Part shown: piece after piece, positions 5,358-53,542 of the stretch
Layout of the letters: each line of letters starts with the position of its first letter
How positions within the stretch are numbered: position 1 is the stretch's first letter
Source of the DNA: Prolixibacteraceae bacterium
GTDB lineage: Bacteria; Bacteroidota; Bacteroidia; Bacteroidales; Prolixibacteraceae
Length of the DNA: 64,000 bases
NCBI GenBank assembly: GCA_025210775.1
Contig: JAOARB010000020.1
Span: 1 to 64,000 of the forward strand
Direction of reading: 5' to 3'
The notes under the pieces: generated by a model
What the model saw: only the letters and a program-made list of their open reading frames with translations
Told to the model about the DNA's origin: nothing
Databases searched by the model: none
Position numbers and translations under genes: made by a program

Positions 5358-5494
5358 TATATGTTCAATTTTAAATAAGTGTATTCCTATTCAAAATCAA
5401 ACTACCAAGCAACAGATATCTATCATTGAGAATATCTTCTTCCCCCCAATGTATACCTAGCCATTATTCCCGATAGCTGATTACGTAACTTATA

Positions 5495-5665
5495 TGAAGT
5501 AGGTTTTCTGACTTGGAATCCGTTTAGCTCCTTCCCAACTCCCTAGAGTCAGTGGCTTTCTGCTAAAAAGTATACATTCCTTACAGCTGCGGGTACAGTT
5601 CTTGATTTACACAAGATTCCCTAAGTAGCAAACCATTAGATTCACTACAAACCTTCAAAAAGCAC
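5495..5665 (-). promoter_or_regulatory. Cobalamin (B12) riboswitch
   Basis: Read on the minus strand, the segment contains the ordered conserved blocks of the cobalamin aptamer: gggaatcttgtgtaaatc, aagaactgtacccgcagctg (the B12-box-type C-C-C-G-C core), then gccactg, and finally ccaagtcagaaaacctac, which pairs back to the 5' aaggtttg to close P1. It lies 138 bases upstream of the TonB receptor start and in the same direction. The expression platform between 5358 and 5495 has a possible gatat / atatc hairpin, but I cannot decide between transcriptional and translational control. Confidence 0.92.
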
Positions 5666-5816
5666 GCAATTTTAGTCAAAAAAAGAGAACCATGCAACGG
5701 CATGATACGATTTGTGAATAAAAAAAATTTAAATAAAATTTATTTATAGAGTAGAAATATCATTATTTTACTGTTATACTTGTAATGAATATTACGACTA
5801 GGAAAAATTCTATTAA

Positions 5817-21838: not shown

Positions 21839-21998
21839 ATCATAATTTCATTTTGTTACTATATCAAGTTCGCTTTATCACCATATCAACTTCATATCAA
21901 GTTCATTTTATCATAACGCATAAGTGAAGTTAATATGAAGTTGATATGAAATTGATATGAAGTTATGGTGAATTTGATCTGAATTTCACATGAATGCG
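21839..21998. repeat. Inverted arms of 11-bp tandem repeats (ATATGAAGTTG type)
   Basis: The right arm (21933-21998) is six 11-bp units, beginning atatgaagttg, atatgaaattg, atatgaagtta. The left arm (21839-21915) is about seven degenerate units of the opposite orientation, such as atatcaacttc and atatcaagttc. A 16-bp stretch (21882-21897) is a perfect inverted repeat of 21933-21948. The left segment 21878-21900 can also pair with 21952-21971, so alternative hairpins compete. It lies in the gap between the divergent ilv leaders and the thioredoxin gene. Confidence 0.8.
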
Positions 21999-24343: not shown

Positions 24344-25249
24344 ATGGACCAAAATACAATTAATCACTTAAGAGAACTTGAAGCAGAATCTATTTTTGTT
24401 TTAAGAGAAGTTGCAGCACAATTTGAAAAGCCTGTTATGTTATTTTCAGGAGGAAAAGATTCTATTGTGATGTTTCATTTAGCAAGAAAAGCATTTTTTC
24501 CAGGAAAAGTTCCTTTTCCATTGATGCATATCGATACAGGACATAACTTCCAAGAGACTTTAGATTATCGTGACGATCTTTGTGAAAAGACTGGTACACG
24601 ATTGCTTGTTAAATACGTACAAGATTCTATCGATCAAGGAAGAGTTGCAGAAGAAAAAGGACCTAACGCAAGTCGTAATTCTCTTCAAACAACTACTTTG
24701 TTAGATGCTATTGAAGATGAGAAATTTGACTGTGCAATGGGTGGCGGTCGTAGAGACGAGGAGAAAGCTCGTGCTAAAGAAAGATTCTTCTCTCACCGTG
24801 ACGATTTCGGTCAATGGGACCCTAAAAACCAAAGACCTGAACTTTGGAATATCTTCAACGGTAAAAAACATGTAGGAGAGCATTTTAGAGTTTTCCCTAT
24901 TAGTAACTGGACAGAAATGGATGTATGGCAATATATCCTACTAGAAAATATCGCAATGCCATCACTATACTTCACTCACGAAAGAGAAGTATTCTTAAGA
25001 GATGGTACATGGTTAGCTAAATCTCACTGTTTGACTCTTAAACCAGGAGAGCAGTATGAAATGAAACATGTACGTTGTAGAACCATTGGGGATATCACTT
25101 GTACAGGATTGACACTTTCTGAAGCAAATAGTCTTGAAGAGATTATCCAAGAGGTGGCCTCAACAAGAGTAACAGAAAGAGGAGGTCGTGCAGACGATAA
25201 ACGTTCTGAAGCTGCCATGGAGGATAGAAAGAAACAAGGATACTTCTAG
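24344..25249 (+). CDS. cysD: Sulfate adenylyltransferase subunit 2
   Basis: A 301-residue ATP sulfurylase catalytic subunit of the PP-loop family, which makes APS from sulfate and ATP together with CysN. The PP-loop SGGKDSIVM, HIDTGHNFQETL, and the C-terminal MKHVRCRTIGDITCTG and RGGRADDKRSEAAMEDRKKQGYF blocks are standard. Its start is preceded by a good promoter. Sulfite production would continue with the APS reductase at 8055-8759. Confidence 0.96.
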   Translation: MDQNTINHLRELEAESIFVLREVAAQFEKPVMLFSGGKDSIVMFHLARKAFFPGKVPFPLMHIDTGHNFQETLDYRDDLCEKTGTRLLVKYVQDSIDQGRVAEEKGPNASRNSLQTTTLLDAIEDEKFDCAMGGGRRDEEKARAKERFFSHRDDFGQWDPKNQRPELWNIFNGKKHVGEHFRVFPISNWTEMDVWQYILLENIAMPSLYFTHEREVFLRDGTWLAKSHCLTLKPGEQYEMKHVRCRTIGDITCTGLTLSEANSLEEIIQEVASTRVTERGGRADDKRSEAAMEDRKKQGYF

Positions 25250-35821: not shown

Positions 35822-35933
35822 TTTCTCCATGGTTCCTTCATGGTTGCTCCATGGTTTGTCCATCGATTTCCCCCTTATCGATGGAGGAACCATGGACGAA
35901 CCATGGACAAACCATGGACAAACCATGGAGGAA
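35822..35933. repeat. Inverted arms of 11-bp CCATGG units, copy A
   Basis: Four left-arm units (35822-35865; ttnntccatgg pattern) and five right-arm units (35879-35933; cgatggaggaa, ccatggacgaa, twice ccatggacaaa, ccatggaggaa) face each other around a 13-base centre (atttcccccttat). A second copy with one fewer right-arm unit is at 53442-53542. The 11-bp period is not a multiple of three and crosses no real gene, so the frames that open through it are chance. Confidence 0.92.
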
Positions 35934-53141: not shown

Positions 53142-53441
53142 ATCCTTGAGTTATTTTATGTTTTAAATCTTGTACAATTATATCGCACACGATTTAAATA
53201 TGCAAATTATCGAACCATTATTTTTTCCATTCATTTTCACTTTTCTTTACCAAACAACACCTAAACATCTCTATAACAGGCAATACAAACTAAAACACCC
53301 AGAGGTATTTTTTTTCTTAAAAGAAAACCTAAGATTGAATTACGGAACTGTTTTAAGCAAAGAATTAGACACACTTCGGACCAAGAGATGGATTTGGAAT
53401 GTAAAATCATCATCGTGGAACAATGGTATTTTTAACCATAC

Positions 53442-53542
53442 TTTGTCCATGGTTCCTCCATGGTTGCTCCATGGTTTGTCCATCGATTTCCCCCTTATCG
53501 ATGGAGGAACCATGGACGAACCATGGACAAACCATGGAGGAA
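53442..53542. repeat. Inverted arms of 11-bp CCATGG units, copy B
   Basis: Four left-arm units (53442-53485) and four right-arm units (53499-53542) surround the same 13-base centre as copy A at 35822-35933. Compared with copy A, two left units differ by one base each and one right-arm ccatggacaaa unit is missing. It lies in the gap between gpx and pheT; the 134-codon frame that runs through it is a by-product. Confidence 0.92.

Follow-up and report, generated by a model that had tools for sequence, protein, structure and literature searches.

The genome under study (G000) possesses a set of intergenic hairpin arrays sharing one layout, in which 11-bp units are repeated in two inverted arms. 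They belong to at least three families (A, B and C; the units, centres and flanks of A are unrelated to those of B), and together they are set along the chromosome at intervals of about 25 kb, keeping clear of one another across families. Two readings explain most of the observations: selection on the spacing, or transposition with long-range exclusion. We tentatively prefer the former, in which the arrays serve as chromosome-spacing or supercoil-domain elements, while giving it somewhat less than an even chance. The main rival, possible but on the doubtful side, is that they are non-autonomous, MITE-like mobile repeats with target exclusion within about 14 kb, moved by a transposition machinery present or lost; the spacing would then be a by-product with no host role.

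Architecture of the Hairpin Arrays

Two copies of family A lie in the window, meaning the whole 64,000-nucleotide stretch analysed. The left arm of the first (35822..35865, + strand) carries CCATGG (35827–35832), TCATGG (35838–35843), CCATGG (35849–35854) and CCATCG (35860–35865) in 11-bp steps, with TTNNT spacers. A 13-base centre, ATTTCCCCCTTAT (35866..35878), separates it from the right arm (35879..35933, + strand), which consists of CGATGG (35879–35884) and four CCATGG hexamers starting at 35890, 35901, 35912 and 35923, with ANNAA spacers. The layout given in the initial annotation, nine units at exact 11-bp steps, four on the left and five on the right of a 13-base centre, is thus confirmed, as is a second copy at 53.4 kb with a different unit number. 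The latter (53436–53542) has CCATAC, three CCATGG and CCATCG in its left arm (53436..53485, + strand), a centre identical to that of the first copy (53486..53498), and CGATGG with three CCATGG in its right arm (53499..53542, + strand). The further argument that one helical turn per unit would place every CCATGG on the same helix face is not supported, as it requires a helical repeat of 11.0 bp.

The family A two-unit motif matches the window ten times and is absent from 100 dinucleotide shuffles. When lags from 4 to 33 were scanned, period 11 marked three regions, and the only other lags with regions were its multiples 22 (two) and 33 (two), one of the lag-33 regions (24357–24424) being unrelated to the hairpin arrays. 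The third period-11 region (21863–21978), absent from the initial annotation, repeats the same layout with another unit, ATGAANTTGAT, and represents family B. Its left arm (21863..21917, + strand) consists of ATCAANTTCAT-type 11-bp units and its right arm (21924..21978, + strand) of ATGAANTTGAT units, lying 5′ of a thioredoxin-family gene.

Overall the elements are AT-rich, modular hairpins of 110–280 bp. For family A, the alignment comprised 49 two-armed elements, drawn from 52 loci plus the window. Five of the 52 loci (L003, L049, L051, L059 and L067), having no recognised two-armed centre, were excluded from the alignment, flank, spacer and strand-asymmetry analyses and were retained in the position list only where the motif match gave a place. 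By eye, the family A elements L032, L034, L042, L061 and L069 have IS-like ends (GACACTGTCC... GTGTGTAA) no more than about 100 bp away. Among the 49 aligned elements the arms hold one to eight hexamers each, not counting the centre pair, and the centre reads CCATCG...CGATGG with a variable GC patch between. In the single-contig relatives G002 and G003 (the latter a sister species), CAT in the left arm and ATG in the right vary least, and TT and AA recur at 11 bp going outward. The 11-bp periodicity extends outward beyond the CCATGG units. In the B arms identity is 0.63 at lag 11 and 0.60 at lag 22, and the periodicity reaches about 140 bp from the centre before it ends.

Outside the family A arms, similarity weakens gradually over about 45 bp, and the two flanks are weakly alike once one of them is inverted. 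The lack of a sharp end may count against a mobile repeat; the variable unit number and the centres that are inverted relative to their flanks in some elements speak for one. In G000, only 8 of 140 pairs of spacer dinucleotides taken from matching levels of the arms are complementary, against 37.7 expected, and in the G003 copies inspected the spacers at levels 1–3 look complementary by eye. Given these G003 spacers and the shared ancestry of the copies, we make no claim of selection for spacer mismatches.

Distribution within and among Genomes

The family A motif has 189 + 213 matches in the genome at up to two mismatches, compared with 1 + 0 for the reversed pattern, and 66 elements were located. 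Family B (unit ATGAANTTGAT) accounts for 57 elements and family C (unit AGGTTAAGAAA) for six; the latter was found in mid-gap without any pattern being given. A family-blind scan, which called lag repeats with inverted symmetry and ignored the unit sequence, returned 72 hairpins at lag 11, every one of them A, B or C, and none at lags 8, 9, 10, 12, 13 and 14 in the same 889,964 distinct bases. Because the scanned stretches were mostly picked around A and B matches, the figure of 72 cannot be taken for the whole genome. Across nine other genomes (336 kb) the scan yielded one lag-11 hairpin, from a sister genus, against none or one for each other lag. This single hairpin, with 11-bp units TATGGAAATTG, lies at L193:17030–17110 (genome G026, another genus of the same family), and its unit has no further copies at two mismatches. 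Other short-period arrays include a 10-bp minisatellite of CCACTACCAG type spanning about 900 bp (L189:16482–17407, genome G004) and period-22 arrays at L191:7285–7397 (G005) and L197:8082–8142 (G009), the first of which alternates a fixed 12-mer with variable 10-mers.

The four genomes of the genus contain 391, 35, 55 and 117 family A motif matches, and the other 57 relatives 0–5 each, near the reversed-control level, which reaches 2 there. On these counts family A is abundant only in this genus. Copies occur throughout the genome and in all four genomes of the genus, and confinement to the two window sites with absence from relatives, which the initial annotation had named as grounds against the element, is not what was found.

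Family B is more restricted: its motif has 93 matches in G000, while the six other genomes tested, including three from the genus, have none. This limitation to one species among the seven genomes resembles a recent amplification and counts against the spacing reading; the homogeneity of the families within a genome, together with the species specificity of B, fits a mobile repeat. Further families share the layout in the relatives. G003 has at least three (units AATGAAATTCG, AATGAAGTATC and GACCGTTTGAA) and G002 one (unit GGGTAACCAAA), and in long G003 arms the CCATGG units pass into other 11-bp units (GGACGGATTAA, GGTAGGAGAAG).

In genome_contigs the exact three-unit pattern matched four stretches: two contigs of a single Marinifilaceae isolate, a contig with the label Vallitalea and one of Flavobacteriaceae with direct repeats only. 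The close-strain copy L092 differs from L043 by one extra 11-bp unit. The Vallitalea-labelled contig (L094) is probably mis-binned, being 97.6% identical to this genome over 547 bp. The Flavobacteriaceae stretch, in a MAG (L091:5822–5866), has four direct repeats of a CCATGGAGTAA-type 11-bp unit and lacks a left arm. Spread by viruses was rejected, the exact three-unit pattern having no match in viral_contigs, and spread by plasmids likewise, a window copy having no match in 72,556 plasmids.

Spacing along the Chromosome

The joint map of families A, B and C comprises 126 elements on 26 contigs, giving 100 gaps; contigs of known length were used, with C10 and C16 excluded. The smallest gap is 13.8 kb and the median 25.1 kb, and 73 of the 100 fall between 15 and 30 kb. 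No gap is shorter than 10 kb, compared with a mean of 31.4 and a lowest count of 15 in 20,000 random placements, and the coefficient of variation (CV) is 0.39 against 0.90 at random (lowest 0.65). The result is unchanged when placements are limited to intergenic slots at one per 6.8 kb, a density measured as 59 slots, each 300 bp or longer, over 400 kb. Within the window, free intergenic regions lie 1.8, 2.5, 3.4, 7.3 and 7.4 kb from elements. Such even spacing is hard to obtain from random insertion.

Avoidance holds between A and B as strongly as within either family. None of 51 nearest A–B distances is below 10 kb, whereas 16.3 are expected from shifting B within the individual contigs. Family C filled 5 of the 20 gap middles examined in this genome (e.g., 173.8 kb, between elements at 149.6 and 201.3 kb), in keeping with the spacing reading; the other 15 had no element, which counts against it. 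Of 95 neighbouring pairs, 59 mix families, where shuffled labels give 47.7 (sd 4.9).

This excess of different-family neighbours would suit a pruning of close copies by recombination, in which exchange between nearby copies removes them or brings about harmful deletions and inversions, so that the well-separated ones alone persist; the inverted centres described above would suit it too. Simple recombination between close copies is nevertheless disfavored by the equally strong avoidance between A and B, which share no homology, and we consider it improbable. The same A–B exclusion weighs on the mobile-repeat explanation, since a single machinery would need to read only the 11-bp hairpin layout. 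In its favor, a hard core combined with random gaps would give a CV near the observed one, and target immunity is described for Mu, Tn7 and Tn3 in the account of PMC3562280.

Recognition sites for DNA uptake or transfer could also account for even spacing and intergenic placement, as uptake sites are rather evenly spread in some genomes. Known uptake sequences are, however, short and far denser, and hairpins of 110–280 bp with several unrelated sequences provide no uniform recognition word, making this explanation very improbable.

In the relatives the spacing was assessed for family A alone, which is over-dispersed in both G002 and G003. The 36 elements of G002, a list missing at least one diverged copy, have a CV of 0.46, which none of 20,000 runs undercut, and a minimum gap of 24.5 kb (P 0.0006). 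The 38 elements of G003 have a minimum gap of 27.6 kb (P 0.0001), and their CV of 0.80 is not unusual (P 0.10). Hairpins of two different units lie 330–500 bp apart at two places in G003, so exclusion is not absolute there.

Sites Shared between Species

Gene neighbours of 80 of the approximately 129 G000 elements were compared with those of 25 elements in G002, 38 in G003 and one in G001. Reciprocal best pairs adjoining an element in both genomes numbered 11, at nine sites, with 12 pairs adjoining an element in one genome only and 13 in neither. In all 11 of the former the same gene end faces the element, which counts against a mobile repeat. Most sites are not common to the species compared, a point against the spacing reading: among the 80 G000 elements compared, shared sites with G003 cover 7 of its 38.

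Two of the sites shared by G000 and G003 carry different unit families. The window element at 21920, before the thioredoxin gene, belongs to B in G000 and its counterpart L124 to A in G003; at L175/L226 family B corresponds to the GACCGTTTGAA family. At L050/L130 and L040/L149, which have both flanks in common, the unit style of each element is that of its own genome, a pattern that would reflect either re-insertion or the concerted evolution of a site that was retained.

Gene Context, Folding and Curvature

The elements are mostly 100–500 bp from genes and show no preference for gene orientation. Family A elements stand between convergent genes in 13, divergent genes in 13 and tandem genes in 24 of 50 cases, and family B elements in 8, 5 and 8 of 21, respectively. 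An intrinsic terminator or UTR element was rejected on these grounds, 13 of the 50 being divergent and only 13 convergent, at mostly 100–500 bp from genes. A known RNA family was rejected as well, as the only gathering-score match to Rfam 15 in the window is a cobalamin riboswitch. This riboswitch lies at 5481–5671 on the minus strand and scores 82.8 bits.

An RNA hairpin, as suggested in the initial annotation, is possible: the predicted fold is very stable (−69.9 against −33.9 kcal/mol in shuffles), but no orientation relative to genes was seen. The window family A copies fold with z-scores of −10.0 and −9.3 and family B with −7.8. Eleven base pairs also make one turn of A-form helix. A transcribed hairpin acting as terminator, mRNA stabiliser or regulator of a neighbouring gene is consistent with both points. 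It is opposed by the indifference to gene orientation and the distance to genes, and it leaves the 25-kb spacing unexplained. In addition, the G–U-compatible strand differs between G000 and G003: hexamer changes are distributed 25 to 8 between strands in G000 and 10 to 24 in G003, on opposite strands, so that no RNA strand can be assigned. We therefore regard an RNA-level element as quite unlikely.

At the DNA level, a wedge model predicts strong curvature for family A, 102 degrees per 66 bp compared with 36 in shuffles. Under the same model the B arms do not exceed shuffles, which rules out curvature as a mechanism common to the families. A segregation site had also been proposed in the initial annotation. 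Judged by eye, the G003 strands by arm (9+/6− vs. 10+/13−, with dnaA at 4.709 Mb and the terminus assumed opposite) have no polarity toward origin or terminus, and no KOPS-like strand bias along the replichores was seen.

Proposed Function and Comparison with Described Elements

The nucleoid-structuring role raised in the initial annotation, next to a protein array-binding site, gains support from the even spacing and the A–B avoidance. Both the 25-kb scale and the lack of a preferred gene orientation suggest a role in nucleoid or supercoil organisation. Selection on the spacing is further favored by the mutual exclusion of two families with unrelated units, centres and flanks, by the subset of sites that persists in different species beside the same end of a gene, and by a layout that outlives its sequence. 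We hypothesize that the elements are kept at roughly 25-kb intervals, each forming a topological or architectural node of the nucleoid. An architectural protein may act at each element, or the DNA shape itself may suffice, as a cruciform or as the curved tip of a plectoneme, with the repeat of about 11 bp that negatively supercoiled DNA has. A single element in every 25 kb or so would be useful and a close pair wasteful or harmful, and the unit sequence would drift freely by concerted evolution provided that the inverted 11-bp layout persists.

How bacterial chromosome domains of about 10–30 kb originate is an old open question. We speculate, in a proposal more apt to fail than to hold, that the arrays could be the first sequence-encoded nucleoid ruler: interchangeable 11-bp hairpin arrays at ~25-kb intervals that would set the size of topological domains, with selection acting only on the inverted architecture and the units turning over between and within species. 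If the arrays mark domain nodes, the size of a domain could be edited directly. Should they instead be mobile, an exclusion that acts over more than 10 kb and between families unlike in sequence would still be a target immunity that, to our knowledge, differs from the known forms. Searches of open-licence papers for 11-bp inverted intergenic repeats, regularly or evenly spaced palindromes and repeats of Marinifilaceae uncovered nothing of this kind, nor any sequence element recurring at an interval of about 10–30 kb.

The nearest described element in the same order is BrickBuilt, a minisatellite MITE of Porphyromonas gingivalis with 23-nt direct units, a leader and a tail, small terminal inverted repeats and 19 copies (PMC4596501). 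As far as that account describes it, BrickBuilt resembles the arrays in being dispersed and always intergenic, with a variable number of short tandem units, a Bacteroidales host and no single gene context; the arrays differ in being hairpins with 11-bp units in both inverted arms, in forming several families and in their even spacing. Membership was rejected, as the period is exactly 11 and the arms are inverted, against a 23-nt direct unit.

REP/BIME elements come nearest in abundance and proposed role, and gyrase is among the proteins binding them. PMC2817692 describes REPs as short palindromes, rich in GC, that bear a GT(A/G)G head and are associated with a cognate Y1 transposase (RAYT); REPs/BIMEs bind several proteins, and a role in chromosome organisation has been proposed for them. 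Like REP/BIME and REPIN elements as characterised there, the arrays are abundant intergenic imperfect palindromes (PMC2817692); unlike REP/BIME, they are AT-rich modular hairpins of 110–280 bp, with several families in one spacing set. Assignment to REP/BIME was rejected because the arms consist of 11-bp AT-rich modules without a GT(A/G)G head and GC-rich palindrome, and because Y1 (PF01797) has no match in G000, which is 99.5% complete. The absence of a Y1 transposase gene from this genome may also count against a mobile repeat; one Y1 match occurs in G002 and two in G003.

As a comparison of how the arrays might work only, the strong gyrase site of Mu is proposed to start plectonemic supercoiling and to define a domain of tens of kb, although, unlike the arrays, it is described in that source as one site in a phage (PMC3562280). 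The same period is known from bacterial intergenic DNA, where ApA/TpT recur at about 11 bp, an effect ascribed to the helical repeat (PMC516772). In the G002 and G003 family A arms, too, AA/TT recurs at 11 bp. In the terms of that report the periodicity is a weak statistical signal, whereas the arrays are discrete hairpins (PMC516772).

Among the G002 genes, a 256-aa ATPase with a DnaA domain occurs in four copies with equal scores (C1:1671377, 3899110, 3912425 and 4285085). These copies we take to be IS21-helper-like.
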